Shown: positions 3,643-52,268 of the stretch, one piece after another
Position numbering within the stretch: position 1 is the first letter of the stretch
Layout: each line of letters starts with the position of its first letter
NCBI GenBank assembly: GCA_022548915.1
Contig: JAKZES010000015.1
Coordinates: 1-64,000, forward strand
Length of the DNA: 64,000 nt
Direction: 5' to 3'
DNA from: Verrucomicrobiaceae bacterium E54
GTDB lineage: Bacteria; Verrucomicrobiota; Verrucomicrobiia; Verrucomicrobiales; Akkermansiaceae
Translations under genes and position numbers: made by a program
The notes under the pieces: generated by a model
Databases searched by the model: none
What the model saw: the letters and a program-made list of their open reading frames with translations, nothing else
Told to the model about the DNA's origin: nothing

Positions 3643-3684
3643 CGGATCCGTGAGAGGCAGTTCTTCTCATCACAATTACCTCCG

Positions 3685-3795: not shown

Positions 3796-3959
3796 GGCGG
3801 AAGTGACAGGGGTTCAGCGACCTGATAATCCCCGGAGACGGTGAGACTGCCGCCGGAGCCATTGACGCGCAGACTTTTCAAGAATCCGCCGCCCCGCCCG
3901 GTGGAGCGGCCCGTCAGTGCCGTATTGCCAGCCCCATCCATGCCCGCCACACTCCGCCC

Positions 3960-4316: not shown

Positions 4317-4408
4317 TCGGGCGCCCTTTTCGCTGGCGGGAAATCGATGCCTCCGATAAATCCCGAGCGCTGCGGTTTTCCCGATGTAAGACAGCCCTTG
4401 TTTCCGCC

Positions 4409-4765
4409 ATGCGTTCCATCCTCCTTCTGATCCCTGCGCTGCTTGCCAGCTGCGGGCCCACCATTTCCCAACGCGAAGTCCTCGGCCGGGCCCGGGCCGA
4501 GGTTGCAGTGCGCGAGACCTGGGCGGACTCGGCGCTGATCAAGGTCAGGAAACGCCCGGCATTTCCGTGGTCCCACTGGAAGATCCAGGCCGGGCAACTC
4601 GATGAATCCAACTACCCGCTTTACGAGGGTCTGGACCTGGTTCCCGGCACCGAGCGCGAATTGAGATTCTCGCGATCCGGCTGCCTCGTCCGCTACGGCG
4701 AGAACCTCACCGGCTGCAACGACCGCTACCTTTCCGGCGTCCCGGCACCTGCTCCGAGCAAGTAA
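4409..4765 (+). CDS. Small lipoprotein of unknown function
   Basis: A 118-residue exported lipoprotein. The start at 4409 gives a short signal peptide, MRSILLLIPALLASCG, with the lipobox L-A-S-C (Cys15) at its end. The mature part has several tryptophans and a pair of cysteines near the C-terminus (GCLVRYGENLTGC) that could form a disulfide. It ends in a Pro/Ala tail. It sits 28 bases upstream of mnmH, so it may share a transcript, but nothing links its function to selenium. Confidence 0.75.
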   Translation: MRSILLLIPALLASCGPTISQREVLGRARAEVAVRETWADSALIKVRKRPAFPWSHWKIQAGQLDESNYPLYEGLDLVPGTERELRFSRSGCLVRYGENLTGCNDRYLSGVPAPAPSK

Positions 4766-4793
4766 GCCGCTCCGCGGAGGCCACCCGCTTGCC

Positions 4794-11560: not shown

Positions 11561-12199
11561 TCACAGTTCCTTCAGCTTCAGCTTGCGCCAGGCCACCTGG
11601 AAAGGGCCCTGGCCTTTGCCGATGCTGTGGACCTGGAGGCCGATGAAACCCTTCGGGTGACTCTTGAACCGTTTCTCGTCAACGAGATCGGAAATCATCT
11701 CACCGTTGATCCAGACCTGGATCCGCGGTCCGTTGGCGACGACACGGTAGGCGTTCCAATCGCCGTCCTTGAAATGCTTGTGCGGCCTCAGGTCGATCTG
11801 GGGCGTCATCCAACCTCCGATTGCCTCGCCGTAGATGTATCCGGCCTCGGCACCCTTCTCGCCGCTGGCCTCGATCTCGACCTGGGGTCCGTTCACCCGG
11901 CCCTTCGGCCCTCCGAAGGTGCCCGAGCGGATCTGCACGCCGGAGTTCAGCGCGTCGTCGACCTTCACTTCGAAGGTCAGCTCGAAGTCGCCATACTTCT
12001 TGTCGGTGCACAGGAAGCTGTTGGGGCTGCCCTCGGCCGTCGTCCCGACCAGCGTGTCGCCTTTGATTTCGTAGGTCGCCGTTCCATTGCGCTGGGTCCA
12101 GCCATCGAGGTCCTTGCCATTGAAAAGGTCCACCCAGCCCTCTCCTCCGAAGGCGGAGGCTGCGGCGGCGACCGTCAGGTAAATCATGGTCTTCATCAT
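11561..12199 (-). CDS. Secreted DUF1080 (3-keto-disaccharide hydrolase-like) protein
   Basis: A 212-residue exported protein: a signal peptide (MIYLTVAAAASAFGG, within the first 20 residues) and one concanavalin-like DUF1080 domain starting WVDLFNGKDLDGW. Family marks are the NSFLCTDKKYGDFELTFE strand, GVQIRS, the Gly-rich loop GGPKGRVNGPQVEIE, WNAYRVVANG and IQVWING. DUF1080 proteins are abundant in Verrucomicrobiota and Planctomycetota; some are 3-keto-glycoside hydrolases or lyases acting after Gfo/Idh/MocA oxidoreductases. The neighbours here do not identify a substrate. A second ATG lies one codon downstream (12196). Confidence 0.88.
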   Translation of the reverse strand: MMKTMIYLTVAAAASAFGGEGWVDLFNGKDLDGWTQRNGTATYEIKGDTLVGTTAEGSPNSFLCTDKKYGDFELTFEVKVDDALNSGVQIRSGTFGGPKGRVNGPQVEIEASGEKGAEAGYIYGEAIGGWMTPQIDLRPHKHFKDGDWNAYRVVANGPRIQVWINGEMISDLVDEKRFKSHPKGFIGLQVHSIGKGQGPFQVAWRKLKLKEL

Positions 12200-12319
12200 A
12201 AGATATGCGCACTACGTGCTCATCCGGCCGGTTTTCGCACCGGTTTTCGAGTTTTTTCTTGGTTCTTGGCTCGATGGTTGCTCCGGATGGCCGCGCTCTA
12301 ACTGCTTTTGCAACGCCGG

Positions 12320-13171
12320 ATGAAAGTCACTCCCCTCCTCACCGCGATCGCCCTGTCCTCCAATCCCCTGACAGCAGGGGTCATTTTCACCGACACCTTC
12401 TCCGGATCCGGCAGCCCGGATCCCGTGTGGGTGACCGACACCAGCGGCGACAGCACGGTCAACGCCACGGTCAGTGTCAGCGGCGGAGCACTCAACGTGA
12501 ACACCGACAGCGTGGAGGGCCTGGCCGTCGCACGGCACACACTTGAACTGACCGGCTCGGGCGCCCCGGTTCTCACACTCGGATCAAGCTGGACCGTTCA
12601 GGCCAACATGACCCTTGCCGACGGATCGGCCTTCGCCACGATGGCCGGCGGTGAGGGGGTCGCTCTCTCCTTCGGTGTTCGAAACAATCTTCCATCCACC
12701 GACGACCGGGCACAAATCAACTTCGCAGCTCTCAACTTCGCCGGTGGCCCCGATTTTGCCGTCCGGGGAGCGCACGTGACCGCCGGTGCCGAAACCGGAC
12801 CCATCACCAATCTCGGGGCCGCCTCGGCCCCGCTCACCGCGACCATGAGGATGGCCTACGATGCGGGTACCGGCCTGATTTCATTCGGGGCGGACACCGG
12901 AGTGGGATTTTTCGAGTTGGTCACGCCTGTCGATACCTCCGTCTGGTCGATGACGGCTTCCGACCCGCTCCTGATCCAACTGGAATTGGGAATGGCGAAG
13001 TTCGATGATCTCCCGGCCGACAGCACCTTCTCGATCGAGGACGGCGAAGCGACCATCAACTCGTTCACGATCTTCGACGAAGTCCTCGCCACCAACACCA
13101 TTCCGGAACCTGGAACGCTGCTGCTTTCCGCTCTAGGCATGGCAGGTTTGGTTCTGCGACGCCGTCGCTGA
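12320..13171 (+). CDS. PEP-CTERM sorted exported protein
   Basis: A 283-residue extracellular protein. It has an N-terminal signal peptide (MKVTPLLTAIALSSNPLTAG), a beta-rich middle of low sequence complexity (many Gly, Thr, Ser, Asp), and the C-terminal sorting signal IPEPGTLLLSALGMAGLVLR followed by arginines. Exosortase is expected to cut near the PEP and attach the protein to the cell surface or matrix. An ATG four codons upstream (12308) is possible, but 12320 gives the standard signal peptide. The function of the mature domain is not recognisable. Confidence 0.88.
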   Translation: MKVTPLLTAIALSSNPLTAGVIFTDTFSGSGSPDPVWVTDTSGDSTVNATVSVSGGALNVNTDSVEGLAVARHTLELTGSGAPVLTLGSSWTVQANMTLADGSAFATMAGGEGVALSFGVRNNLPSTDDRAQINFAALNFAGGPDFAVRGAHVTAGAETGPITNLGAASAPLTATMRMAYDAGTGLISFGADTGVGFFELVTPVDTSVWSMTASDPLLIQLELGMAKFDDLPADSTFSIEDGEATINSFTIFDEVLATNTIPEPGTLLLSALGMAGLVLRRRR

Positions 13172-27367: not shown

Positions 27368-29118
27368 TGATCTTTACACACATCTCGTTGATCCGTTGAT
27401 GGAGAATGTCGTAAATTTTTGCGGACTCGGAAGTGGTCCTGGTTGGAGCCTCCTCCAGCCCATCCACCTCTCCCGCGGCCGGGGCGCGGCCCTGCAATCC
27501 GGGCACGCCAAACCGGACGGTCTGCAAAGACCGCCAGCCCCCGACCCCCTCCCTCATCGCCCGTGGATCGTCTCCCAGGCCAAGGCGAAGTCGCTTATCC
27601 GTCCCATTCCGACCCAGATTCTCTGCGGCCCGGGAGGACCGTCGCCCTTCCGCCCCGGGTGGCCACCAAGCTTCCCAACGATGCCGATGAATTCCCCGAG
27701 GGTCGGCTCCCCGGCTTGCGGGTCGCGCTTGACCACCGCGCACGCGGACTTCCATTCCGCTTCAGCAAACACACTGCCACACGGCAATTCCGGACAACGC
27801 CGTCCCAGATGAGTCAGGTAAAGGATCCGCCAGGCGATCACCACGTAGATCATCAATGCCCTGATCAACGCATCGGCCTGCTTGAGCTGGATGCGCTCGA
27901 CACGGCACCCGGTCTTGAGCACCCGGTGGAAAACCTCGATATCCCAGCGCCGGAGATAGATCCTCACCATCCGGCAGGCATCCTCGAAGGACTCAACCGG
28001 CTTGCTCGTCAGCAGCAACCAACGGAGCGGATCCTGTCCTTCCGGCGGGTTCTCTTCTTCGGCAAGAATCGCCCAGAAAGTCACCGGCGCGACCTTTCCT
28101 CCGCCGGGTCGTTGAGGCGGGCGAGGAGTGATCTTCATCATGCGGAGGGTCTGGCGCACCCTCCTCGCGGTCCGCGGGTTGGAGACCCGCGAACCCTTCT
28201 TCTTGGTCACGCGCGACATCTTCGCGCTGATTTCGAACTCGACATGACCGAGGACCGGGGCGGCCTCGAGGGCGGCGAAAAGCCTTGCCGGACCGGCACC
28301 TTCAACCTCGACCAGAGCCCGATCCTGATTGGCCCGGATCAGCCAGTGGGCGGCCGCGCCGCCCGCCGCGGCGGCCTCGCGCCGCGCCTCGAAGACTTCG
28401 TGGATGTCTCCTTCCCGGTCGCTCACCGAGAAAACCTCGCGCCCTTCGGGCAGGGCGCGCGCCAGTTCGCAGGTCTTGCGGTATCCCGCCAGCCAGCGGT
28501 AACTCTCCTTCTCCTCAATAGGGCGCTTCTTGCGCTTGGAATTGATGCGGAAATGCTCGTCGTCACGGATGTTGATTGCCGCATCGAGGATGCCCAGAGG
28601 CAGGCCTTGCTCGGATCCGACATGGAGCGAGTGCATGAAAAAGCCACGACGCTGCTCGCTGTTGAGCGGGCCGAGTCCTTCGGTGGCCTCCATGTGGGTG
28701 AAATCCAACTCGGTGGTATCTTGGGAGACGATCAGGCATGCATGATCGGCGCAGCGGCGGGTCACGGCTTCCCGATGAGGGCCGAGCAGGGACTCCGGCG
28801 TCGCCTTGTCGCAATGCAACAGCCGGAGTGCGCCGACAATCTCCGCCCAACCTCCGCAAGCAGCGCTGATGCTCGCGGCGGGGGCATCGGCAAGGGCGGA
28901 GACGACTTTCAGCAGGCGCTCTTGAAGCCGCCCATCCTTGAGATCGGCACCCTTGAATTCATCGGCAATATTCTCGGACATTCGGACGACGGCATCAGCC
29001 GCAACCCGATTCTGGGGAAGTCCTAAAAAAAAAGTACAGATTTGAATTCGATTATTTCAAATAACTAACGATCAACAGGTAACGGAGCCTTCCGATGAGA
29101 GATGTGTATAAAGATCAG
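27367..29118. mobile_element. IS50-like insertion sequence (IS4 superfamily) with Tn5-like ends
   Basis: A 1752-bp element. The ends are 20-bp inverted repeats with one mismatch: CTGATCTTTACACACATCTC (27367-27386) and, read inward from 29118, CTGATCTTTATACACATCTC. These closely resemble Tn5/IS50 ends (CTG-TCT-CTTATACACATCT). It carries a single transposase gene on the minus strand. The 9 bases outside each end (GCCCGGGCC and GGCCAAGTG) are not the same, so the expected 9-bp target duplication is absent. That, and loss of the 3' part of the fucosidase gene, points to a deletion next to the element after insertion. Confidence 0.88.
27554..28981 (-). CDS. IS50/Tn5-like transposase
   Basis: A 475-residue DDE transposase. 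The N-terminus FKGADLKDGRLQERLLKVVS and CGGWAEIVGALRLL match the Tn5 DNA-binding domain; catalytic residues are in LIVSQDTTELDF (first Asp), FSVSDREGDIHEVF (second Asp) and the YREK signature YLRRWDIEVFHRVLK, whose Glu is the third. Length is that of Tn5 Tnp (476). The gene looks intact, so the element could still move. It is antisense to the interrupted fucosidase gene. Confidence 0.94.
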   Translation of the reverse strand: MSENIADEFKGADLKDGRLQERLLKVVSALADAPAASISAACGGWAEIVGALRLLHCDKATPESLLGPHREAVTRRCADHACLIVSQDTTELDFTHMEATEGLGPLNSEQRRGFFMHSLHVGSEQGLPLGILDAAINIRDDEHFRINSKRKKRPIEEKESYRWLAGYRKTCELARALPEGREVFSVSDREGDIHEVFEARREAAAAGGAAAHWLIRANQDRALVEVEGAGPARLFAALEAAPVLGHVEFEISAKMSRVTKKKGSRVSNPRTARRVRQTLRMMKITPRPPQRPGGGKVAPVTFWAILAEEENPPEGQDPLRWLLLTSKPVESFEDACRMVRIYLRRWDIEVFHRVLKTGCRVERIQLKQADALIRALMIYVVIAWRILYLTHLGRRCPELPCGSVFAEAEWKSACAVVKRDPQAGEPTLGEFIGIVGKLGGHPGRKGDGPPGPQRIWVGMGRISDFALAWETIHGR

Positions 29119-31796: not shown

Positions 31797-33296
31797 TCAC
31801 GAACCGACCATCTCCTTCAATTTGGGATAGTCGATTTTCGACTGATGGCGCCGGTCCATCGGCAGCAGGTCCACGGACCTCACCTGTGAACAGCCCAGCT
31901 CCCGCGCCGCTCTCTCAAACTCCGGATCCGCCTCGCCCTCGACCACCAGCACCACCTCGTCGGCGACTTCCAGCGCCGCGGTTCTCCGCTCCGGAAAACG
32001 CAAGCGCAGGGCAGCCTCGATTTGCAGGGGATAGCGTTCGCCCAGTTTCGCCGTGCAGCGCCCGACCAGCCAGAGTCCTCCGCCGGCATCGAGCCAACCG
32101 GCATCGCCGGTCCGATGCCAGACCCGGTCGCCCACCCGGATCTTGGTTTCGTCGTCGTCGCGGCCATCCAGATATCCCGTAAGAACCTGCGGCCCGGCCA
32201 CCACGATCTCTCCGATCTCGCCCACGGCCAAACGCTGCGCCTCGAAAGCGTCGGCAGTCATCGCCTCCACCGGCTCCCCGAAACGATCCGGAAGAACGGC
32301 CACCTCCAGGACCGGTCTCCCGGCGGGAAGCCCCCGCCCTGCCTTGATCTTCTCAAGCACCTCGGGCGTCCACCCCTTGGAAGGAAATTCCGCGACCGGC
32401 TCGGCTTCGGTCGAACCGTAAACCGCCGTTGCTTCGATCCCCACCTCCCGGAGACGCCGGATCAGATCGGGAAGCACCGGGGCGCCTCCGGTGAATACCT
32501 TTCGCAGGGTGCCTGCCTCGCCGCCGGCAAGGAGGGCCTCGAAAAAGGCCGGGGCCGCCGTCGCGCGTTCCACCTCCCAACGCCGGCACTGGGCGACGAT
32601 CCGCCCGGGATCCGCCTCGCCCGGACGCCCGAGATCGGCATCGGCCAGCACGCTGGTCACCCCGCTCGCCAGATTGGCCAGGGCAAAGACCGGCAAGGTC
32701 ACCAGGTCGCGCTCGCCCGGCACCAACTCAAGGGCCGCGCTCAGTGCCTGATGCTGCGCCAGCAGGAACCCGTGCGTCCGCACCGCTCCCTTCGGCTCAC
32801 CGGTGCTGCCGCTGGTAAAGGTGATCAGGGCCGGATGCTCGGCCTGCACCTCGAAAAGCCCGGCCTCCCGGGTGCCGTTCATCACGGGTCGCGATGCCGG
32901 CCACCATCCCCGCGGATGCATGCCGTGCGGAATCCGCCGCAGCGACCCGATCGTCCACCGCAGCAGGTGCGCCTTGCGGCTTCCGAAAAAAGCCTCGGGC
33001 CGCACCCGCTCGCAAACCTGCTCCAGGAATCCGCGCCCGCCCGAGGGGTCTGCCAGCACCACCGCCACTCCCGCGTGGAAACACCCGAGAAGGAATTCAT
33101 ACAACTCGATCGCCACCGGATGAAACACGAGCACCCGGTCACCCGGACCGAGCCCCGCCCGATCCAACTCGGCCGCAACCCGGCGGACGCTCTTCCACAG
33201 GCCGCCGAAGGACACCGCCCGCCCGCCCCCGTCCACCAGCGCCCATCGCTCCGGATCCAGCTCCGCCTGAGCCCCGAGTTTTTCTACGAGATTCAT
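31797..33296 (-). CDS. AMP-forming acyl/aryl-acid ligase (ANL superfamily)
   Basis: A 499-residue adenylating enzyme, last gene of the 31.8-41.3 kb operon. Motifs: the phosphate loop ITFTSGSTGEPKG (about 165-177), VYGSTEAEPVAEF, the hinge-region WHRTGDAGWLDAGGG, and the C-terminal catalytic Lys in HQSKIDY (about 488). The RRHQSKID ending and short length resemble fatty-acid ligases such as OleC-like enzymes more than aminoacyl NRPS domains. It probably activates a carboxylic acid, by CoA or direct transfer, for the pathway encoded upstream. It overlaps the GNAT gene by four bases (33293-33296). Confidence 0.9.
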   Translation of the reverse strand: MNLVEKLGAQAELDPERWALVDGGGRAVSFGGLWKSVRRVAAELDRAGLGPGDRVLVFHPVAIELYEFLLGCFHAGVAVVLADPSGGRGFLEQVCERVRPEAFFGSRKAHLLRWTIGSLRRIPHGMHPRGWWPASRPVMNGTREAGLFEVQAEHPALITFTSGSTGEPKGAVRTHGFLLAQHQALSAALELVPGERDLVTLPVFALANLASGVTSVLADADLGRPGEADPGRIVAQCRRWEVERATAAPAFFEALLAGGEAGTLRKVFTGGAPVLPDLIRRLREVGIEATAVYGSTEAEPVAEFPSKGWTPEVLEKIKAGRGLPAGRPVLEVAVLPDRFGEPVEAMTADAFEAQRLAVGEIGEIVVAGPQVLTGYLDGRDDDETKIRVGDRVWHRTGDAGWLDAGGGLWLVGRCTAKLGERYPLQIEAALRLRFPERRTAALEVADEVVLVVEGEADPEFERAARELGCSQVRSVDLLPMDRRHQSKIDYPKLKEMVGS

Positions 33297-34216
33297 AGTG
33301 GTTTCGACAACAAGGCGTAGCGCCGCATCACCGAGCCCCCGAAACGACCGGTGATCCGCAACGAGGTGTTGGCCTCGTGCTGCAGGGCGTGGATGGCATG
33401 AGTAAAGCCAGCCTGAAGCCCCGCACTCTGGACCCGGTCGACCAGGAGGCTCCCGAGTCCCGCCGTCCGGCGGTCCCGCTTCACTGCCAGCGTCTTCACG
33501 ATCAGGTCAGGGGGCTCGCCGCGCTGCATCGCCAGCGCGTCCGGCACGCTGAAGACGAATCCCGCCAATCCATCCTCGTCCTCCGCCAGCCAGACCAGCC
33601 CGGGCCGCACCAGTTCGCGCACCTTCGCATACATCGCCACAAACTCGGGCTCCGCCAGCGGGGTGTAGAGGAAGTTTCCGGCGAAGCTTTCCAGTGAAAG
33701 CCGATGAATCAGCCGCAGCTCATCCTCGAAGCGTGCCGGATCCAGCTCCCTCACACGCACTCCCCGGTCGGCGAGGCGTTGCTCGATCCGGTCCATGCCG
33801 GCTTTTGCCTCGCCCAGCACAAGCCGCGACGACGAATACCGGCTGAGCACCGAGAAGCCCTCGTCCTGCCACCACCCCGGCCAGTCCGGAGGATTCGATG
33901 GCTCGAGAAAGAACGGCGGTCGTTCCCCGGGCTCGACCACGAAGCGATGGCGGCGCCAGGTGTTTCCATCCATCGGACCGATCGCCCGGGAGCAGCCCAC
34001 CTCCCGCAGCCGGTCACAGGCAGCCGTCAGCAGTGCCTGTGCCGCTTCACGATCCACCGCCTCGAAGCCTCCAATGCAACCGACCATTTCGCCCGGCATC
34101 GACGGCACCTCGCTCCACCACAGTCCGGCCTGTCCACGCTCGCCGCCACCATCATGGGCAATCCACGTTTCGTCGGCACCCGCCCGGCCCGGATTCATTC
34201 GCTCCACTTTCATCAT
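33293..34216 (-). CDS. GNAT-fold acyltransferase-like protein (operon member)
   Basis: A 307-residue soluble protein with two GNAT-like halves. The first contains IGPMDGNTWRRHRFV and EPSNPPDWPGWWQDEGF; the second has the strand LVWLAEDEDGLAGFVFSVPD and KTLAVKRDRRTAGLGSLLVD, where RRTAGLGS is the acyl-CoA pyrophosphate loop. It could acylate an amine or hydroxyl, or bind CoA without catalysis. ATGA overlaps at both ends tie it to the kinase-like gene upstream (34213-34216) and the ligase downstream. Confidence 0.8.
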   Translation of the reverse strand: MMKVERMNPGRAGADETWIAHDGGGERGQAGLWWSEVPSMPGEMVGCIGGFEAVDREAAQALLTAACDRLREVGCSRAIGPMDGNTWRRHRFVVEPGERPPFFLEPSNPPDWPGWWQDEGFSVLSRYSSSRLVLGEAKAGMDRIEQRLADRGVRVRELDPARFEDELRLIHRLSLESFAGNFLYTPLAEPEFVAMYAKVRELVRPGLVWLAEDEDGLAGFVFSVPDALAMQRGEPPDLIVKTLAVKRDRRTAGLGSLLVDRVQSAGLQAGFTHAIHALQHEANTSLRITGRFGGSVMRRYALLSKPL

Positions 34217-35514
34217 CCATCAATCCACAAGGCCACCAGCGACGGCACCAGCGCGAAAGCACCCCGCGCCAATCGGAAGGTCGATTGATCTCCACCCAGC
34301 CGGTCGCAAAACTCGAAGAAAACCCGTCCGGAAACCAACGCCAGCAGGCCGCCCGCCAACGCCAGCCACCCGCTCCGGCCGACACCAAGCCAGACGACAA
34401 CCGGTGCCAGAACCACCAACAGCTTCACGATTCCCCACATCCAGCCGGCGCCCTCCCTGCCCAGGTAGCGCCGGGTCCCGAGATGCATGATCCAGAGCAT
34501 GGCCGCGGCACCCAGCGCGCAGCCCAGCAAGGCGGTACTTTCTCCAACCCACAAGTTCGCGGCCGCCCATGGCAAGGTCGCCAAGGCCACGGCAAAGACC
34601 GGCTCCCGCCCATGCCGCAGTTCCCCGGCGAGGCCGTGCCACCAGGTTGTTGCGAGATGCACGCCGAAGACGCCCAGCGCCGGCAACAGAAATCCGATCC
34701 CGCCGAATACCGCCAAACCGTAACCGAGAAGTCCCGCCGCCAACAGAGCCGCGCCGTCGAGCGTCGAGAGCTTTCCCAGCACCACGACCAGAACCAGCAA
34801 CCCGACCACCGTGCCACACCGGATCATCAAGGCCGGCTCACCCAACTCACCGAAACGGCTCAGCAGGAAGAACACCCACAAGGGCAGGACCAGATTGTCA
34901 CTCCCCCGGTCGGAAAGCCCCTCCGCCATGGTGGCCAGCAATCCGACGGTGAGCGAAATCCACATCACCTTCCCGGGCGCGAAGCGGCCATCAGCGACCA
35001 ACGGCACCGCGACGCAGGCGATCGCCAGAAAAAGGAAGGCCGCGGATCCCTCGACCGACTTCCACCCCGCGCCACTGCCGTAGCGTGAGACTCCCCACTT
35101 CGTTCCGGCCAGCGCACCGGCCGCATCGGCCAGGGTCAGCACCAGCACCGATGCAAGATAGTAGCCGACCTGCTCCCCGGACAAGGCGAAGACCAGAGCC
35201 ACCGCCGGCGCAAAGAACAGCTCGCCCAACGACACCCGGCCAATGCCGTGCAAGGCACCACCGATGCCACCACGAAGCGCGGGCAGGAGCCTGACCAGCA
35301 GCAACCCGAGCGTCGCCACCGCCGCCAGCACGCCGACGGCCCATGCCTCGTCGAAGACCCACGGAAAGGCCAGACACACCAGGCCCATGAGTCCGTGGAC
35401 AAGCTTGCGCGAAACCTCCGGCGACCAGCCGGCCCTGCGGCCGAGGCTGCCCACCGCCCACAGCAGGGCTGCCAGAATCGCACTCACCCCCGCGATGCCC
35501 AGCAAGGGGTTCAC
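34213..35514 (-). CDS. Phytol/dolichol-kinase-like integral membrane protein (operon member)
   Basis: A 433-residue membrane protein. I chose the GTG at 35514, which overlaps the preceding stop (GTGA, 35511-35514). The N-terminal half has the pattern of the CTP-dependent polyprenol/phytol kinase family: SRKLVHGLMGLVCLAFPWVF, then LADAAGALAGTKWGVSRYGS and KSVEGSAAFLFLAIA, where the ADxxG...G..KSVEG signature is close to VTE5/SEC59 and CdsA-like proteins. About ten or more hydrophobic segments follow, so the C-terminal half is a further membrane domain. Inferred role: phosphorylation of an isoprenoid alcohol. The reading frame extends further upstream, inside the previous gene, but has no sensible start there. 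Confidence 0.78.
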   Translation of the reverse strand: MNPLLGIAGVSAILAALLWAVGSLGRRAGWSPEVSRKLVHGLMGLVCLAFPWVFDEAWAVGVLAAVATLGLLLVRLLPALRGGIGGALHGIGRVSLGELFFAPAVALVFALSGEQVGYYLASVLVLTLADAAGALAGTKWGVSRYGSGAGWKSVEGSAAFLFLAIACVAVPLVADGRFAPGKVMWISLTVGLLATMAEGLSDRGSDNLVLPLWVFFLLSRFGELGEPALMIRCGTVVGLLVLVVVLGKLSTLDGAALLAAGLLGYGLAVFGGIGFLLPALGVFGVHLATTWWHGLAGELRHGREPVFAVALATLPWAAANLWVGESTALLGCALGAAAMLWIMHLGTRRYLGREGAGWMWGIVKLLVVLAPVVVWLGVGRSGWLALAGGLLALVSGRVFFEFCDRLGGDQSTFRLARGAFALVPSLVALWIDG

Positions 35515-36608
35515 GAGGCCACCTCCTCCACGATGAAGCGACTGTAGAAGAACGCCTGATCCCGTCGGAAGAGTTCCTCCGCCAGATCGGCCAGCGGACG
35601 CACCCCGTCGTGCAACGATGCCGGGGACGATCTCGGCGCGAGCATGTTCCAGTACGCCCAGCGGGTGCCCGGCGTCGACGCGGCGGCGATCCCTTTCATC
35701 AAGCGCCCGCAGTTCGCCTCGCTCATGTACTCGAAGATGTCGCTCAGGTTGAACGCATCGGCCTTCCGGCCCTCCTCCAACCATCCCTCGAGACTGCCCT
35801 CGAAGCACTCGAAGCGCCCCTCGCGCAAGGCATCGGCGATCGACTCGAAGCGGTCTTCCCGCAGTGCCTCCGGCAGTGCCTCACCGAAGCCCCCGGTGAG
35901 AATCCACCAGAGATAGGGATTGGCCGCCGGCTCAAGCTCGACCAGTGCATGACGGGTCCTCTCGAGGATCCGGTCCGCCACCGAGCCCTCGACGTAGCGG
36001 AAGAACTCCGGATCCCGGCCAAGGCGACCCATCACGAAACGCGAGAAGAACACCTGGAAAATCCCGCGCCAGCGACGGTTGTTCCACACCTGCTCGTAGA
36101 ATCGTTCCCGATCGTCCGGCGACCGAGGCTCCAGCAGCTCCCGCACCCGGCGACGGGTATGGGCGAAGGGCAGCGCCCGCCTTCGAAACAAGCGGAAGTA
36201 GCCCTCGAACCTCCCGACTCCGATCGCCCCCGTCTCCAGCCATCCCGGCAGGTTCCGCCAAAACTTCCGCGCCTTCTCCGGCATGTCCCCGGCGACCTTC
36301 TCGAACAGCGTCCGCCGTCGCCCGGATGGCCGGGCACCGAGCAACTCGAGCATCTCACCGTGCCGCAGATTCAGATACGCCGCACGCCGTAGTTCGATGC
36401 ACGCCACCTGCGCCGGGTTCATCTCCACCGCCGTCACCCGACTCGCTCCGGCTCCGAGCAGGGCGAAGCTGTTGTCACCGGCCGAACCGATGCTCACGCA
36501 ATGGCGGCCGGCCGGCTCCAGCGCCTCGACCAGGATCGCCGCATCCTCCCAGCACTGGCCGTAGCGCACCTGCTCGAACTTCGCCCGCTGCTGGATCTCG
36601 CTGCTCAT
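35511..36608 (-). CDS. DUF3419 family protein, BtaA-like 3-amino-3-carboxypropyl transferase
   Basis: A 365-residue soluble protein. YGQCWEDAAILVEAL near the N-terminus and VSIGSAGDNSFALLGAGAS followed by VTAVEMNPAQ (SAM-binding fold), then LELRRAAYLNL-like helix, WNNRRWRGIFQVFFSRFVMG and NLSDIFEYMSEANC are the block order of DUF3419/BtaA. BtaA moves the aminocarboxypropyl group of S-adenosylmethionine to diacylglycerol in betaine-lipid synthesis. No btaB (N-methyltransferase) lies next to it, so the product may be an unmethylated homoserine lipid, or another acceptor is used. ATGA overlap with the preceding gene (36605-36608). Confidence 0.85.
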   Translation of the reverse strand: MSSEIQQRAKFEQVRYGQCWEDAAILVEALEPAGRHCVSIGSAGDNSFALLGAGASRVTAVEMNPAQVACIELRRAAYLNLRHGEMLELLGARPSGRRRTLFEKVAGDMPEKARKFWRNLPGWLETGAIGVGRFEGYFRLFRRRALPFAHTRRRVRELLEPRSPDDRERFYEQVWNNRRWRGIFQVFFSRFVMGRLGRDPEFFRYVEGSVADRILERTRHALVELEPAANPYLWWILTGGFGEALPEALREDRFESIADALREGRFECFEGSLEGWLEEGRKADAFNLSDIFEYMSEANCGRLMKGIAAASTPGTRWAYWNMLAPRSSPASLHDGVRPLADLAEELFRRDQAFFYSRFIVEEVAS

Positions 36609-38986
36609 TCCTGGTCCTCCTCCACCTTCACCACCTGCCCACTGCTCCCATCCATTTCCACCCACTGACCCGTCTCCAGCCAATCCATCACCCCCGGCAG
36701 ACTCACCACGCAGGGCAGGCCCAGCTCGCGCGACACGATCGCCGAATGCGAGAGCACGCTTCCCCGCTCGACCAGCAACCCCGCCGCCTGGGGAAACAAC
36801 ACCACCCAGCCCGGATCCGTCTGCCGCGCCACCAGAATCTCGCCCGCCTCGAGTCGCGCACTTCTCGGATCCTCCACCACCCTTACGCGGCCCCGCACCA
36901 CCCCCGGGCAGGCTCCCACCCCCTGAAGGTTTTCTCCATCAGGCTTCACCGCCCGGCTCATTGCCTCGAAGCTTCGATAGCGATGCAGCGGACCCCGCGT
37001 GGCCAGACGATCCGGCGGCGCCGTCGCCTCCAGGCATCGGAAATACTCGGCTTTCCGGGCCGCGGCCAATGCCCCCAGAGGCACCGATGTCCGGGTTCCC
37101 TCCCACGCACCGAGCAATTCCTCCAGCTCGAGATGGAACACGTCGGCGAGATCGGCCAACTGTCCGTCCGCATGCAAGCGCCGGCCCAATTCGCGCACGA
37201 TCCGCCTCACCCGGCCGAACAAGCGGGTCCTCTCGAAGCGCAGGTTCTCCCGGTCCCGCACCCGGGCCCGGGTGGCCGCCAGCACCTTTCCAAACAGCCA
37301 ACCGGGCGGCACCTCGACCGGTGCCGCATCCCGACCGCTCGCCCCGCCCCTCAGGGCCATCGCCCCGATCGAGGCAAGCAGACTGCCGGGATCATCCTCC
37401 AGGGTCGGGCTCTCCAGCTTCAGCTCTTCCAGGCAGCGGTCCCCGAAGTCCGCGACGTACTGATCAAAGACCTCCGCCAGCTCCGGCAACTCCCGCAGCC
37501 TCGAGCGCTTGACCCACGACTCCACCCCGGGATCGGCCAGCATCTCCGCCAGGCCGTCCACCTTGGACGCCAGCTCACCCATCTCCCGAATCCTCCGCGC
37601 CGGCTCGGCCGAAATGATCTCTCCACAATCCGCGATCAGCCCGTTGGCCAGGTCCTCGCCACCGGGACGCTTCGCACACATCTTGCGCAGCACGCCGTTG
37701 CAGATCATGGCCAGGAAATCGTTCACCAGCGGCGCGTCCCAGCGTTTGAGCAGGCTCGACTCCAGCCGGCGGTATTCCGCCACCAACTCATCACCACTCA
37801 TCCGGGCATGCGGCACTTCGGGCTCACCCAGGGCCTCGTCGAGGCGCTCGCGGAATTCCGCGATGCGGCGCTTCAGGGTCAGCTGACTCCAGACCAATCC
37901 CAGCAGCGTTCTTGCCAAGGCCATGCCGTCCGCAAACTTCCCTTCCCGCGTCTCGGCGGCGATGGCCTCGGTCAGGTTCCCGGGCAGCGACTCCTTCACG
38001 CCCATCATCTGCTCCATGAAACGCCGGTTCACCGAAAATCCGGGCAACAGGGCCAGCACCCGGTACCAGCTCAAGAGGTTGTAATACACCCGCCCCTCGA
38101 TCATCCCGAGCATCCGGGAAAAGACGGCATCCCCGCGCTCCATCCGACGGCCGGGAACCTTCATCATCCGGCAGAACTCGCGATAGACGTGCTCGTAGAT
38201 CCGCCTCGCGAACGAAAAGGTCAACGCTGAGGTCACCCCGCCATAACTCTCGGCGATGTTGCTGTTGTCCCAGATCTGAAGTTCGTCGTCGGGATCGGGA
38301 AGCCCCCCGAGCGTGGTGATCGCCCGCGACTGAAGCAGCCACAGCTTTCCATCGCCATCGACGGCCCACTCGATGTCCTGCGGACGGCCGAAGAAGGCCT
38401 CACACCGCCGTGCCAGATCGATGATCGACCGCACGGTCTCATCATCCAGCAGCGTTCCCTTCTCACGCCAGTCACCATCGTGACACCACATCTCCCCGTC
38501 GACCTCTCCCGACACCAGACGCTCCGCAGTCCCTTCGACCGCTGAGATGACGGTCACCCGCCGTCTCCCATCGACCGGATTCGCGCTGAAGGCCACCCCG
38601 GCAAAACGCGCCTCAATCATCCGCTGCACGATCACCGCCGTTTCCAGCTCTCCCGTCACGCCACGCTCGTCCTGATACTTCCGCACCGATGCCTTCGCGC
38701 CCGACTCCCTCACATCCTCGACCCGCGCCGTCACCTCCTCCAGTGGCACCCGGAGAAAGCTCTCCAACTGACCCGCAAACGAATGCTCGCCCCCGTCTTC
38801 ACCCTGCGCCGATGACCGAACGGCAAACTCCGTGCCACCAAGTGCCGCGACATCCTCCAACGACACCGCCTCGCCCGGCAGCACCGCCACCCATCCCGGC
38901 ACCGGAAAACCCGCCCGCTCCAACTCGCGCAGCGCCGCCCCCTTTCCTCCGAGCCTTTTGAAATCGTTTTTCATGCTCCTGCGCAT
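36605..38986 (-). CDS. PPDK/PEP-synthase-like dikinase without PEP barrel (rifampicin-phosphotransferase-like)
   Basis: A 793-residue enzyme. N-terminal ATP-grasp domain (about 1-220): GGKGAALRELERAGFPVPGW, FAVRSSAQGEDGGEHSFAGQ, MIEARFAGVAFSANPVDG, DIEWAVDGDGKLWLLQSRAI. A long middle domain (about 250-640) is unlike PPDK, and the C-terminal phosphohistidine domain carries RGSVLSHSAIVSRELGLPCV with His747. The PEP/pyruvate TIM barrel is absent. This three-part architecture is that of rifampin phosphotransferase and related small-molecule dikinases, which pass the ATP beta-phosphate through His onto a hydroxyl. The substrate here is likely an intermediate of this operon. Starts 6 bases after the UbiA stop. 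Confidence 0.85.
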   Translation of the reverse strand: MRRSMKNDFKRLGGKGAALRELERAGFPVPGWVAVLPGEAVSLEDVAALGGTEFAVRSSAQGEDGGEHSFAGQLESFLRVPLEEVTARVEDVRESGAKASVRKYQDERGVTGELETAVIVQRMIEARFAGVAFSANPVDGRRRVTVISAVEGTAERLVSGEVDGEMWCHDGDWREKGTLLDDETVRSIIDLARRCEAFFGRPQDIEWAVDGDGKLWLLQSRAITTLGGLPDPDDELQIWDNSNIAESYGGVTSALTFSFARRIYEHVYREFCRMMKVPGRRMERGDAVFSRMLGMIEGRVYYNLLSWYRVLALLPGFSVNRRFMEQMMGVKESLPGNLTEAIAAETREGKFADGMALARTLLGLVWSQLTLKRRIAEFRERLDEALGEPEVPHARMSGDELVAEYRRLESSLLKRWDAPLVNDFLAMICNGVLRKMCAKRPGGEDLANGLIADCGEIISAEPARRIREMGELASKVDGLAEMLADPGVESWVKRSRLRELPELAEVFDQYVADFGDRCLEELKLESPTLEDDPGSLLASIGAMALRGGASGRDAAPVEVPPGWLFGKVLAATRARVRDRENLRFERTRLFGRVRRIVRELGRRLHADGQLADLADVFHLELEELLGAWEGTRTSVPLGALAAARKAEYFRCLEATAPPDRLATRGPLHRYRSFEAMSRAVKPDGENLQGVGACPGVVRGRVRVVEDPRSARLEAGEILVARQTDPGWVVLFPQAAGLLVERGSVLSHSAIVSRELGLPCVVSLPGVMDWLETGQWVEMDGSSGQVVKVEEDQE

Positions 38987-38992
38987 CCAACG

Positions 38993-39937
38993 TTAGAACC
39001 ACTTCAGCCCCATGGGAACCACACCCAGCATCGCATAGAGCACCAGCGTCCACGCGCCGGCCAGTCCTTCGATCACCCTCCCCTTCAAACCGCCCTTCAC
39101 ATAGCGGATCCCGACCGCCAGCGAGACGACCATCAGGACCGCCAGCGTCGATGCCACCGGCAACGCGAAGCCGATCCTTGCGGCGGCGACCGTTGCAAAG
39201 ACGAGGGTCAATCCCTGGCACCCGATCCAGACCGCGAGACCCCGCTTGCGGCCCCACAGGGCCGAGTAGGTTTCCACGCCCTCCTCCTCGTCCTCCGGTT
39301 GGCGCAGCTTGCGCCCGACCTCGATCACGATCCCATTGAAGAAGCTCGCCGCGAGAAAAGGACCCAGTCCCGCCGGCGGACCACCACGCGGCATCCAGTC
39401 GCAGGCCGTGGCAAAGAAGTCCACCAGCGGCATGATCCCCATGTGGGTGAGCAGGTAAACGACCGGCCGCGCCTTCAGCCAATCGCGGGCGAAGAACTCG
39501 ACACTCATCAGGGCCAGGTAGGCCCACCCGATCGCCAGCACCCAGCCAAGCCGGAAGTCATAGAACAGCGACAACCCGAGCTGCACGACCGCCGCCATCA
39601 CGAACACCCACCCCAACTCGCGCAGTTTCACCAGCCCGCGCGGCACCGGGCGATACGGACGCCAGCGGGCATCCTCCCCGGCATCCTTGAACTCGTCCGC
39701 GATCCGCAACTGGAGGAAGAACAGCAGGCACACCCCGAAAGCCACGGCATACGCCGGCCAGTGCGGCTCGCCGCCGCGAAGCAACGCCGAATACGACACC
39801 GCGCAGGCACTGAACACCAGGATCAGCGGCCCGTGCGCGAGCAACGGAAACCGCTCCTTCTGATAGATCCACCATCGCATGGAATGAGAGGCTATCACCT
39901 CCGGAGTTCTCGATGAAATCGAAGTTTCATAAGTCAT
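38993..39937 (-). CDS. UbiA-superfamily prenyltransferase (operon member)
   Basis: A 314-residue membrane enzyme with about eight hydrophobic segments. The first Asp-rich motif is RIADEFKDAGEDARWRPYRP (Asp81, Asp85, Asp89), the second is EVGRKLRQPEDEEEGVETYS (about 206-224); together these bind the isoprenyl diphosphate through magnesium. It would attach an isoprenoid chain to an acceptor in the membrane. Start chosen at ATG 39937; an internal ATG (39880) with a GGAGG 17 bases before it is possible. It begins 59 bases after the HMG-CoA reductase stop. Confidence 0.87.
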   Translation of the reverse strand: MTYETSISSRTPEVIASHSMRWWIYQKERFPLLAHGPLILVFSACAVSYSALLRGGEPHWPAYAVAFGVCLLFFLQLRIADEFKDAGEDARWRPYRPVPRGLVKLRELGWVFVMAAVVQLGLSLFYDFRLGWVLAIGWAYLALMSVEFFARDWLKARPVVYLLTHMGIMPLVDFFATACDWMPRGGPPAGLGPFLAASFFNGIVIEVGRKLRQPEDEEEGVETYSALWGRKRGLAVWIGCQGLTLVFATVAAARIGFALPVASTLAVLMVVSLAVGIRYVKGGLKGRVIEGLAGAWTLVLYAMLGVVPMGLKWF

Positions 39938-39938
39938 T

Positions 39939-39998
39939 ATCGATTCTATCGATGTTACAGGCTTCCTCCCATTGGACCTGTCGGACCCATGGGACCTA
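39939..39998. repeat. Short repeats between HMG-CoA reductase and UbiA genes
   Basis: ATCGAT-TCT-ATCGAT (39939-39953) just before the UbiA start, and an imperfect 9-bp tandem unit NNNGGACCY, three copies (39971-39997), directly after the reductase stop. On the minus strand the 9-bp unit would read as Gly-Pro-x collagen-like triplets, but no gene uses that frame. This 59-base gap is the only sizeable one inside the operon. Confidence 0.5.
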
Positions 39999-41267
39999 TT
40001 GCCCCACGCTCCTCTCCCGGGCGAGCTTGCGATGGGCCCGCGAAAAATGACCGGCCGCCATGGCACCGATGATCGACAACTCCCCGGCCAGCATCAGTCC
40101 GGCAGCCACTTCGGCCAGCGCCCGGGCATGACCGGCCCCGGCCAGCCCCATCAGCTCGAGGCACGCCCGTTGCGTCGGCAGCCCGGTGCCGCCGCCCACG
40201 GTGCCGATCATCAGGCCGGGCAAGGTCACCGCCGCGTAAAGTTCTCCGGCGTCCCCGACCTCGAAGCGGGTCACACCCACCGCCGATTCCGCCACACAGG
40301 CCACATCCTGACCAGTCGCCAGATACAACGCGGCGAGTCCGTTCGCGAAGTGGCCCTGCACGCCGAAGCTCCCGCTCAGCACACCGCCCATCGCCGACAC
40401 CCGCCAGTAGCGCTCCAGTTCCTCCGGTGTCGTGTGGAGGCGCTTTTCCACCAGCGCCGACGGGATCCTGACCTCGGCGGTCACCTTCTTTCCCCGCGTC
40501 GTCGTGAAGGATTTCGCCGACGCCTTCTTGTCGCCGGACAGGTTTCCCTCCACCCACATCCTCTCCGGCTTCACCGGGCTCTCGGCCATGATCGCATCGC
40601 ACACCGCCTGGGTCGCCAGGGTCACCATGTTCTGCCCCGACGCATCGCCGGTGGAAAACTCGAAGGTCAGATACACATGATTGCCTTCGAAGGTCGCGCC
40701 GAGATCGATCATCTCGCCGTGGCGCGTCGTGCCGGCGGCAAGCTTCTTGAAATGATCCACCTGACTCACGACCCACGCAATGAACTGCCCGGCCTCAGCC
40801 AGGGTGCGGAACGCGAATGCCGGTGAACGGCCCACCGTTTCGTAAAGCAGCATCGCCGTGCAGCCACCGGCCTCACCGATCAGGGCGCAGCCGCGGTGGT
40901 AGGACGCCACCAGGGCCGCCTCGGTCGTCGCCAGCGGAACGAGGTAATCGCCCTGCGCGCAAAGCCCGTGCACCCGCAACGGTCCGGCCAACCCCACGGG
41001 CATTCGAACCTCGCCCAGGCAGTTTTCGATGTTCCCCTGATAGACGGACGGATCGCTCTCTCCGAGCAATTCGCGGCGCAGCGTCTCCGGAGCCCCGATC
41101 CGCTCCCACAACTTGATCGTGCGCTCCCGGCTGACCTTGCCACTGGCGGGCAGCAGACGCAGTGCGTCGGACGGATCAGGGCTCAGGGCCTGCTTCAATT
41201 CCTGCAGATCGCGGCCGTCGACCAGACTCCTCACCTGACGCGCCGACAGTGAATGCTTTCCCGACAT
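39996..41267 (-). CDS. Hydroxymethylglutaryl-CoA reductase, class I (NADPH type)
   Basis: A 423-residue enzyme making mevalonate from HMG-CoA. Family motifs: IENCLGEVRMPVGLAGPLRV (about 80-99), the catalytic Glu in TTEAALVASYHRG (Glu116), NADPH/CoA-binding GDASGQNM (207-214), GNLSGDKKASAKSF (Lys247/248), ATGQDVACVAESAV (Asp321), TVGGGTGLPTQRACLELMG and the C-terminal His412 in FSRAHRKLARE. These match class I enzymes, mostly of eukaryotes, archaea and some bacteria. It heads the tight operon; dxr elsewhere in the window shows that the cell also has the MEP route. Confidence 0.95.
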   Translation of the reverse strand: MSGKHSLSARQVRSLVDGRDLQELKQALSPDPSDALRLLPASGKVSRERTIKLWERIGAPETLRRELLGESDPSVYQGNIENCLGEVRMPVGLAGPLRVHGLCAQGDYLVPLATTEAALVASYHRGCALIGEAGGCTAMLLYETVGRSPAFAFRTLAEAGQFIAWVVSQVDHFKKLAAGTTRHGEMIDLGATFEGNHVYLTFEFSTGDASGQNMVTLATQAVCDAIMAESPVKPERMWVEGNLSGDKKASAKSFTTTRGKKVTAEVRIPSALVEKRLHTTPEELERYWRVSAMGGVLSGSFGVQGHFANGLAALYLATGQDVACVAESAVGVTRFEVGDAGELYAAVTLPGLMIGTVGGGTGLPTQRACLELMGLAGAGHARALAEVAAGLMLAGELSIIGAMAAGHFSRAHRKLARERSVGQ

Positions 41268-41308: not shown

Positions 41309-41902
41309 TCAGTCCCCGCCCACCGCAGCCACCCTACCAGCCAGCTCCGCCAGGCGCCCGGCCAGGGCGACGCCCGGCGTCGTCGGGGGGATGCTTTCCA
41401 AGTCATCCAGATTCCAGCGGAAGATCACCTTGTAGCCGTCCCATTCGGCCGCCGCGCCGGTGTCGCGCATCCAGCGAACCGCCGTCACGTTCTCCGGCAT
41501 GGTGTAACCGACAAACCGCCGCACACCCGCGGCCATCGCATCGACCCACGCCGCCGCAAGGAGGAGGGTCCCGACACCCCGCCGCTGGTCGGCATCGAGC
41601 ACCGTACAGGAAAACTCCGCTTCATCCGGGTCCTCCCGGGATCGCCACCAGCTACCGGCCCCGACCCCGGGATACTCCCGGGCCGGATCCAGCACCGCCC
41701 AGACCGCGTGGTTCACCGGATCGTTTCCCAGGATCCGGTCGAGCATTCCTTCACCGATGGTTTCTCCGGTCCGGACCCAGAACCGCTGATAGCGGGACTC
41801 GGGCGACAACAACCGGTAGCCTTCGGCCAGACCGTCGCGGTCGTCCGGACCCAACCGGCGCAACCGGACCGCGGTGCCGTCGTCCAGCGTTGTCTCGATC
41901 AC
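41309..41902 (-). CDS. GNAT family N-acetyltransferase
   Basis: A 197-residue GNAT protein: RLRRLGPDDRDGLAEGYRLL and SPESRYQRFWV near the N-terminus, the acidic AEFSCTVLDADQRRGVGTLL strand and acetyl-CoA loop (RRGVGT, about 109-114), and a C-terminal GYTMPENVTAVRWMRDTGA helix (the N-x-x-A-x-x-x-M/L-x-x-x-G pattern of the fold). It starts with GTG at 41902. Its stop is 41 bases upstream of the reductase ATG in the same direction, so it may be the first gene of the operon. Substrate unknown. Confidence 0.82.
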   Translation of the reverse strand: MIETTLDDGTAVRLRRLGPDDRDGLAEGYRLLSPESRYQRFWVRTGETIGEGMLDRILGNDPVNHAVWAVLDPAREYPGVGAGSWWRSREDPDEAEFSCTVLDADQRRGVGTLLLAAAWVDAMAAGVRRFVGYTMPENVTAVRWMRDTGAAAEWDGYKVIFRWNLDDLESIPPTTPGVALAGRLAELAGRVAAVGGD

Positions 41903-51095: not shown

Positions 51096-52268
51096 TTAGG
51101 ATTTTCCGGTCCTTTGGCAAGCTGCCGCTGCCTCGTCACGCGCCCAGTGATCCGCCGCGATCACCGACTCGAGCGATCCTGCATCCCGGACCTCGTGGGC
51201 GTCCATCGTCCCGCCCACAACCTTCCAGATATCGGTGAAGCCGATCCTCCGCTCGACGAAGGCATCGACCGCCACCTCGTTCGCCGCATTGAAGACCGCC
51301 GGCAGGGTGCCGCCGGCCAGTCCCGCCCGCCGCGCCAGGCCCAAGGCCGGAAAGTCGTCATGCCGCGGGGCCTCGAAGTCCAGCTTCGCGAGTCCGGCGA
51401 AGTCCAAGGGCTTGAGGCCGCCCTGCACCCGATCCGGCCAGGTCAGTGCATACTGGATGGGAAAACACATGTCGGTGCGGCTCAGCTGAGCGAGCACCGA
51501 GCCGTCGACGAACTCGACCATCGAATGGATGATACTCTGCGGGTGAACCACCACGTCGATCCGGTCCATGCCGATGCCGAACAGCCAACGGGCCTCGACC
51601 ATTTCGAGCCCCTTGTTGAACAGCGTGGCTGAATCGATGGTGATCTTGCGGCCCATGTCCCAGGTCGGATGCTTGAGCGCCTGCTCCACAGAGACCGACG
51701 CGAGTTCCGCCGATGGCGTCTGCCGGAAGGGTCCGCCCGAGGCGGTGAGGATGAGCCTTGAGACCTCCTTGGCCCCACCGCGGTGTCCGTCGAGACACTG
51801 GAAAATCGCGTTGTGCTCGCTGTCGACCGGCAGGATGGACACGCCGTGCTTCTCCGCCGCAGCGGTGACCACCTCACCCGCCATCACCAGGATCTCCTTC
51901 GAGGCCACCGCCAAATCCTTGCCGGCCTCGATCGCGGCGAGGGCCGGGTGCAGGCCACCGGTCCCGACGATCGCCACCAGAACCACGTCGGCCTCGGCCA
52001 GGGTTGCGAGTTCCACGAGTCCTTCGGCACCCACATGCACGGTGACATCGGCGGGCAGTAGACTCCGGAGTTCCGCTTCCTTGGCGGGATCGGCGATCGC
52101 CACGTGGCGCGCTCCCGTCTCCCTCGCCTGCTCGGCCAGACGGCCGACATTCGAGTGGGCCGCCAGCCCCACCAGTTCGATCCGCTCCGGAAGCTGACGG
52201 GCGACCTCCAGGGTCGAACATCCGATCGACCCGGTCGCCCCGAGCAGCACCACCCGCTTGCGCTTCAT
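51096..52268 (-). CDS. dxr: 1-deoxy-D-xylulose-5-phosphate reductoisomerase
   Basis: A 390-residue enzyme catalysing the second MEP-pathway step, DXP to MEP. Seen: NADPH-binding VVLLGATGSIGCSTLEVARQ near the N-terminus, SKEILVMAG, LPVDSEHNAIFQCL (metal-binding Asp/Glu), LTASGGPFR, MGRKITIDSATLFNKGLE and VVVHPQSIIHSMVEF. ATGA overlap with cdsA (52265-52268), the classic cdsA-dxr pairing of envelope/isoprenoid genes. The following gene is a PEP-CTERM protease rather than rseP. It shows that the MEP pathway supplies general isoprenoids here. Confidence 0.97.
   Translation of the reverse strand: MKRKRVVLLGATGSIGCSTLEVARQLPERIELVGLAAHSNVGRLAEQARETGARHVAIADPAKEAELRSLLPADVTVHVGAEGLVELATLAEADVVLVAIVGTGGLHPALAAIEAGKDLAVASKEILVMAGEVVTAAAEKHGVSILPVDSEHNAIFQCLDGHRGGAKEVSRLILTASGGPFRQTPSAELASVSVEQALKHPTWDMGRKITIDSATLFNKGLEMVEARWLFGIGMDRIDVVVHPQSIIHSMVEFVDGSVLAQLSRTDMCFPIQYALTWPDRVQGGLKPLDFAGLAKLDFEAPRHDDFPALGLARRAGLAGGTLPAVFNAANEVAVDAFVERRIGFTDIWKVVGGTMDAHEVRDAGSLESVIAADHWARDEAAAACQRTGKS

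Follow-up and report, generated by a model that had tools for sequence, protein, structure and literature searches.

The HMG-CoA reductase (HMGR) homologue encoded at one end of a seven-gene unit in the window, the whole stretch of 64,000 nucleotides that was analysed, is probably a dedicated thioester-to-alcohol reductase acting on a substrate other than HMG in a lipid-like pathway. The reduction chemistry is indicated by the catalytic set, which is kept, the change of substrate by an altered pocket together with missing enzymes for HMG-CoA, and the lipid nature of the pathway by the partner genes. The genes of the unit are:

39996..41267, minus strand: HMG-CoA reductase homologue of clade A, 423 residues, assigned from PF00368, catalytic residues, pocket residues and the tree
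38993..39880, minus strand: UbiA-family prenyltransferase, 295 residues, ATG after GGAGG
36605..38986, minus strand: PEP-synthase-like protein, 793 residues, with a PPDK_N (ATP-binding) and a C-terminal PEP-utilising mobile domain
35511..36608, minus strand: DUF3419 protein (family of BtaA), 365 residues, PF11899 184.3 bits, cut-off 28.2
34213..35514, minus strand: membrane protein x5, 433 residues, GTG start, N-terminal half CdsA / phytol-kinase-like
33293..34216, minus strand: tandem GNAT N-acyltransferase, 307 residues, PF00583 32.5 bits
31797..33296, minus strand: AMP-forming acyl ligase, 499 residues, PF00501 172.4 bits, nearest to PRK09274 / OleC-type models

The ORF named for the reductase in the preliminary description is real, and the strand, which was not given there, is minus; the plus-strand reading of 39996–41267 is interrupted by internal stops. 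The product matches PF00368 with 363.8 bits against a cut-off of 27, and is the sole PF00368 match in its own genome. The catalytic residues Glu116, Lys247/248, Asp321 and His412 are exactly where they had been placed, and the class I label is borne out by the nearest solved relatives, the best being 6hr7 (E 7.7e-82), the sequence of a methanogen enzyme. Class I enzymes of plants and human come next, with E about 1e-56 to 1e-55, and class II-type matches begin only at E 2.1e-10. The NCBIfam model TIGR00533 gives 318.7 bits, under its cut-off of 441.8, an early sign that the reductase is a non-standard family member. Judged by its sequence, the protein is a member of the HMGR family by descent, and should not be filed as a functional HMG-CoA reductase since the substrate-contact residues fail and TIGR00533 is not reached.

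The residues of the pocket are numbered as in human HMGR, with Glu559 set at TTEG, and were counted in 28 complete rows of clade A (the operon-type HMGRs, which have Glu at human position 684 and lack Lys735), 19 distinct mevalonate-type rows of the phylum and 4 references. The partial rows L006, L008 and L009, all of which carry Glu at 684, and the duplicates L036, L058, L064, L069 and L072 were removed beforehand, and separate counts were made for L043, the four Vibrionaceae, and the rows from Alteromonas, Sinorhizobium and Streptomyces (L116). The catalytic set Glu559, Lys691, Asp767 and His866 is intact in all 28 clade A rows, which likewise keep Ser565, Arg568, Arg590, Asn686, Asp690, Lys692, His752 and Asn755. 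Position 684 is Glu and position 688 is Ser in 28/28 clade A rows, whereas the 4 references and all 19 mevalonate-type rows have Ser and Cys respectively; position 689 is Gly throughout clade A. Lys735 is present in 0/28 clade A rows against 23/23 canonical rows (references plus mevalonate-type). In the same 28 rows position 736 is Ser (25) or Ala (3) and position 750 is Gln (20) or His (8), both being Asn in all 23 canonical rows. The location of 735 hinges on the placing of a one-residue gap; with the alternative placement the residue is Val, Met, Ile or Thr, never Lys, among the clade A rows listed, and the residues near 735 vary within the clade (Arg, Gln, Lys, Glu, His), indicating that no fixed basic residue is found there. 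Arg627 is kept in just 12 of the 28 rows and Asn567, which is variable also in clade B, the other HMGRs of the phylum, in 6. The cofactor motif DAMGMN reads DA(S/A)GQN in most clade A rows, with Asp653 in 27 of 28 (one row is without it) and Gly656 and Asn658 in every row.

Two of the positions that differ, 684 and 735, are contacts of the HMG group. In a study of plant HMGR with pitavastatin, the HMG-like moiety of the drug is bound through its carboxylate, which forms a salt bridge with the Lys735 equivalent, and polar contacts are made by the equivalents of Arg590, Ser684, Asp690, Lys691, Lys692 and Asn755 (PMC9500038); Ser684 is also listed as a substrate-pocket residue in a second paper (PMC3875450). 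An invariant Glu in place of a carboxylate contact would be expected to repel the carboxylate of HMG.

The genome carries genes of another route to isoprenoids. The dxr gene, located in the window at 51096–52268 on the minus strand, is intact as described earlier (TIGR00243 461.5 bits, cut-off 315.7), and ispE, ispH, ispG and dxs are found elsewhere in the genome, so that a check for lost MEP genes found all five that were searched present. HMG-CoA synthase (PF01154) has 0 matches in the genome, with a control search in which 7 of 14 control genomes match, 6 of them above cut-off. The search for mevalonate-type kinases and decarboxylase with PF00288 found no match above cut-off belonging to the mevalonate pathway: the GHMP kinases above cut-off are a galactokinase, a homoserine kinase and IspE. 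A fourth match, sub-threshold at 18.8 bits and with two stops, is no kinase gene. The HMG-CoA lyase model has three matches in the genome, the best with 34.5 bits against a cut-off of 246, and a supply of HMG-CoA from leucine breakdown is unsupported with the lyase model so far under its cut-off. Completeness of the genome is put at 97.49% by the tool used, so single gene absences are strong but not absolute. The view that the reductase has no house-keeping role in isoprenoid synthesis is hence supported, with mevalonate genes not found and five MEP genes present. The genome also encodes a second, divergent IspH-like protein of 282 residues (G000:C187:7988-8596; L015 1486-2334, minus strand) that reaches 90.4 bits with TIGR00216, cut-off 187.85; the normal IspH has 409 residues.

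A tree with bacterial homologues, proposed in the preliminary description, was built from 59 rows, four reference HMGRs among them, and places the operon-type clade apart from the canonical enzymes. Canonical and non-canonical HMGRs split at 100/98, with human, plant, 6hr7, the Streptomyces mevalonate HMGR and the Verrucomicrobiota mevalonate type on one side, and clade A and its kin from Vibrionaceae, Alteromonas, Sinorhizobium and Streptomyces (L116) on the other. Clade A, the Vibrionaceae and L043 are grouped at 100/97, and the placement of the long Sinorhizobium and Streptomyces L116 branches is unsure. Hyphomicrobiales and Devosia rows nest within the 100/97 group, which together with a plasmid-borne copy of the cluster (see below) speaks for transfer between phyla. 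Compared with the class I enzymes 6hr7, plant and human, the window clade shares the family, the catalytic Glu, Lys, Asp and His, Arg590 and Lys692, but it differs in Ser684 to Glu, Cys688 to Ser, the loss of Lys735 and the changes at Asn736 and Asn750, and in its separate branch and a host in which the mevalonate pathway was not found.

Clade A proteins are about 48–79% identical to the window protein. The 79% identical copy is that of Haloferula luteola, the nearest relative of the source organism, which the kinship of the genomes places in the same genus. Those of clade B, of the same family and phylum, have a shorter match with a score of 306 bits or less, are 34–37% identical to it, and group in the tree with the HMGR of the Streptomyces mevalonate cluster, which clade A does not. 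With queries from that cluster, eight clade B loci (L085-L092) were examined for context; all keep the HMG pocket, and an IDI2-like gene lies within 1 kb of HMGR in 7/8, HMG-CoA synthase is found at 3/8, a mevalonate-kinase-like gene at 2/8 and a decarboxylase at 1/8, beside the MVK-like gene. At L091 all four, IDI2-like, HMG-CoA synthase, mevalonate kinase and decarboxylase, were not found. Mevalonate-pathway genes do occur in Verrucomicrobiota, beside a different HMGR clade. The same queries found no mevalonate gene in ten clade A stretches (L076-L084 and the window), apart from a weak mevalonate-kinase hit in L076 to an ORF that by eye looks like a galactokinase. Two HMGR matches occur in seven genomes. 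G087 has two fragments of the short type, and in G067, G070, G111, G213, G241 and G413 the scores point to one operon-type and one short-type match. Alignment shows a kept pocket in the short copies of G067, G111 and G213; those of G070, G241 and G413 were assigned by score and match start only.

Several relatives counted apart from these two groups were seen. The four Vibrionaceae proteins (L093 14938-16200; L094, L118, L119; on Vibrio and Photobacterium replicons) have Asp at 684 and no Lys735, and a Vibrio member of the non-canonical group is annotated simply as hydroxymethylglutaryl-CoA reductase. On the V. fluvialis plasmid no operon partner was found around the reductase within the 31 kb seen. 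On the Photobacterium replicon L119 a predicted qnrS-type quinolone resistance gene (12003-12668) is located about 2.8 kb from the HMGR relative. The Alteromonas plasmid protein (L096 7878-9044) has Ala at 684, and slightly upstream, at 2283-6116, are genes for a thermostable hemolysin, an AMP-binding protein, an iron-containing redox enzyme and an SDR protein. In the Sinorhizobium medicae plasmid protein (L097 7884-9128) the SGN motif is lost; its neighbours are acyl-CoA carboxylase, biotin carboxylase and indolepyruvate ferredoxin oxidoreductase genes. L043 (3962-5260) is a clade A paralogue with Glu at 690, Arg at 692 and an altered DAMGMN motif, with no operon partners and in a genome without DUF3419, and it is either decayed or repurposed again.

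In the window, DUF3419, x5, GNAT and AMP ligase genes each overlap the preceding gene by 4 bases, which suggests translational coupling. The start of UbiA was picked from conservation and the ribosome site, and its score with PF01040 (51.5 bits, cut-off 34.2) was obtained on the longer ORF 38993-40066. The PEP-synthase-like protein matches PF01326 with 133 bits and PF00391 with 79.1 bits, and the solved entries closest to it bear the name PEP synthase; the NCBIfam PRK06241-type PEP synthase model gives 643.4 bits, under its cut-off of 883. The AMP ligase likewise stays below the NCBIfam PRK09274 cut-off (308.4 bits, cut-off 478). The tandem GNAT protein has a predicted model with pLDDT 91 that matches tandem GNATs (7q3a, E 2.3e-13). 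For x5 the AlphaFold model has pLDDT 89, and its N-terminal half aligns with the CDP-DAG synthetase 4q2e at Z 8.5 and rmsd 4.1 over 163 residues, which is weak for a helical bundle. PF01148 (CTP_transf_1) has no match for the x5 of the window and 22 bits, below the cut-off of 24, for the relative in L106, and a Foldseek search with x5 gave no match at E 0.001 or better. A C-terminal half of the DUF92/VTE6 type is unsupported, no such Pfam match being found, and the comparison with CarS 5guf (Z 5.6) is too weak for use.

The reductase had been placed at the head of a specialised operon. This holds for the conserved seven-gene unit, but a GNAT gene on the same strand (41309-41902, minus; PF13302 29.5 bits, cut-off 25.4) is located 41 bp upstream of HMGR, so the transcript may begin before HMGR. 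Among the 13 related stretches used for comparison, none shows a clear equivalent of the upstream GNAT. A Tn5-type transposase gene (27554-28981, minus) lies about 2.8 kb past the operon end.

The reductase is present in 15 of 57 genomes of relatives, the window's own genome counted. The synteny comparison took in 37 stretches and left out L043, L006 and L009; a clade A reductase is present in 30, and all seven genes are clustered in 17 of these 30, in two block orders: the window, L031-L034, L037-L040, L042, L073-L078 and L095, with internal gaps up to 2.9 kb in some. L095 is an alphaproteobacterial plasmid, from Roseinatronobacter sp. S2 (NZ_CP121116.1), which has the gene order of the window with HMGR truncated by the record start. 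Two-gene blocks are mostly kept, UbiA with the PEP-synthase-like gene, DUF3419 with x5, and GNAT with AMP ligase, with exceptions in L038 (780 bases between DUF3419 and x5), L078 (2.9 kb between GNAT and AMP ligase), L079 and L082. In other gene orders HMGR directly adjoins DUF3419 (L076-L079, L081-L083). Among the remaining clade A stretches, the sequence of L004, L005, L007 and L035 runs out 61 bases or less from the last visible gene, L079 has HMGR-DUF3419-x5-GNAT and then 2.3 kb to the contig end without AMP ligase, and L080 and L081 have HMGR-DUF3419-x5 with 1.3 and 0.9 kb left before the contig end. L082 and L083 have UbiA-PEP-HMGR-DUF3419 with no GNAT or AMP ligase seen adjoining, x5 coming next in L083 and L082 showing only a distant x5 piece. 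L008 and L041 carry HMGR-UbiA-PEP only, and L084 and L003 HMGR alone; the L041 genome has a DUF3419 gene, and the L084 genome an x5 gene, at another place.

The converse is also found, as the six other genes occur without HMGR at five loci (L102, L103, L106, L107 and L108), whose genomes (G171, G060, G061, G278 and G138) are absent from the 72 PF00368-positive genomes; G171 is a single-contig genome. Either the reductase performs an add-on or tailoring reaction, or another enzyme does the step in these clusters, and the five loci indicate that it is most likely a tailoring, not a founding, step. Of the 387 sampled genomes of the phylum, 72 have an HMGR and 15 carry the operon type, with a score of at least 335 bits. 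In all 15 clade A genomes x5 reaches at least 150 bits, as it does in only 4 of the 372 others (Fisher value 1e-23, with shared descent ignored); a lower score line adds G278 and G138 (127 bits), giving 6/372, and up to four candidates were scored per genome so carriers may be undercounted. No relative was found among viral contigs. The literature search, with subscription papers mostly outside it, found no paper on the seven-gene cluster, and within the same scope none of the four papers naming DUF3419 deals with such a cluster, judging by title and start of abstract.

The seven-gene pathway is probably for the synthesis of an isoprenoid-containing polar lipid. The AMP ligase would make an acyl-CoA, and the HMGR homologue would take a thioester to the alcohol; we infer its substrate and product to be a CoA thioester other than HMG-CoA and a primary alcohol, linked by an NADPH-dependent four-electron reduction. 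The x5 protein might phosphorylate or activate a lipid alcohol with CTP, UbiA would transfer a prenyl group from the MEP pathway, DUF3419 may use S-adenosylmethionine to add a 3-amino-3-carboxypropyl group, the tandem GNAT protein could acylate the amine, and the PEP-synthase-like enzyme might provide phosphoryl- or ATP-driven coupling.

Parts of the unit resemble known systems. BtaA is the diacylglyceryl-homoserine synthase, and PF11899 covers most of the length of the operon DUF3419 protein. The identifiable operon members have 177–230 bits (G000, G003, G010, G025, G289 and G299, with G024 in two pieces), unlike many other DUF3419 genes of the class, which form a higher band of 325–397 bits that we take to be BtaA-like, and unlike the BtaA system there is no BtaB-type (N-methyltransferase) gene in the seven-gene unit. 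The alignment of x5 with 4q2e, and motifs that presumably resemble those of VTE5, are points of likeness to phytol kinase, dolichol kinase and CdsA, but x5 continues into a C-terminal membrane half of about 200 residues that they lack, and is under the Pfam cut-off. Phytol salvage in the tocopherol route pairs an alcohol-activating membrane kinase-like protein with UbiA; in comparison the operon adds HMGR, AMP ligase, DUF3419, GNAT and the dikinase-like protein, and has no aromatic-precursor gene. The clade B reductases differ from the operon type in the shorter match, in the kept HMG pocket and in their vicinity to IDI2 and sometimes HMG-CoA synthase or MVK/MVD, and both score classes occur in six genomes.

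The preliminary description left two uses open, the provision of mevalonate and action on a different acyl-CoA, and the second is better supported, as Ser684 and Lys735 are lost in 28/28 clade A rows and no lyase is above cut-off. A true HMG-CoA reductase making mevalonate as a building block, and not for isopentenyl diphosphate, is unlikely, although it would fit the kept catalytic residues, Arg590, Asp690 and Lys692, and the operon has its own AMP ligase; HMG-CoA would have to be supplied by a ligase that uses 3-hydroxy-3-methylglutarate, or by some source not yet recognised. Against it are the loss of two contacts that 19/19 mevalonate-type relatives of the phylum keep, the expected repulsion of the HMG carboxylate by the invariant Glu, and HMG-CoA synthase and lyase not found above cut-off in the genome. 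That the reductase serves ordinary isoprenoid synthesis, in a mevalonate pathway whose genes are scattered over the genome, is next to impossible. Pathway genes exist in the phylum near the other clade, but the genome has no HMG-CoA synthase, three GHMP kinases above cut-off none of which is of the pathway, and five MEP genes, so that this reading is refuted unless the entire pathway lay in the small part of the genome that is missing. A catalytically dead or vestigial passenger is most improbable, the catalytic set being intact in 28/28 rows that are as little as about 48% identical to the window protein (up to 79%); the changes at Asp690, Lys692 and the cofactor motif that would suit it are those of the partnerless L043.

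As a special case of the preferred explanation, a non-HMG thioester reductase, the substrate could be amino-acid-like and the product an amino alcohol. It would be the 3-amino-3-carboxypropyl group installed by DUF3419, with acylation by GNAT giving a ceramide-like head, and the role of the acid at 684 would be to bind the ammonium. The acid (Glu in 28/28 clade A rows, Asp in 4/4 Vibrionaceae), the adjoining of HMGR and DUF3419 in other gene orders and the optional reductase, as expected of a tailoring step, are consistent with this, but it is quite unlikely: the substrate is a guess, the AMP ligase scores closest to fatty-acid and not amino-acid ligases, Arg590 and Lys692 are kept, clusters exist without reductase, and no cluster lies near the reductase of the V. 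fluvialis plasmid or of L084. Further still goes the very doubtful idea of an undescribed class of bacterial lipids, in which HMGR, by Ser684 to Glu and loss of Lys735, switched from a carboxylate- to an ammonium-bearing thioester and makes an amino alcohol, which would be a new way to a sphingoid-like head. The seven-gene pathway building such lipids would have crossed between phyla and would combine an isoprenoid part (UbiA), an amino-acid part (DUF3419) and acyl parts (GNAT, ligase). The preferred explanation itself, a dedicated reductase of another thioester in lipid synthesis, has points against it. Arg590, Asp690 and Lys692 are also contacts of the HMG-like group, so that some HMG-CoA activity is possible. 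The reductase is not essential to the cluster, as it is absent at five loci, and copies without nearby partners in L084, L003, L043 and the V. fluvialis plasmid indicate that it may have uses outside the seven-gene pathway. The lipid assignment rests on family names, with a weak fold match for x5.

HMG-CoA reductase is among the best-studied enzymes and a drug target, and a bacterial homologue is easily taken as a mark of the mevalonate pathway. Here a whole clade has a rebuilt pocket, and the copy in the window is found in a genome with MEP genes, next to six unrelated partners. The clade is a warning for pathway annotation and offers a test of how an old reductase changes its substrate, and the cluster is a handle on an undescribed pathway.
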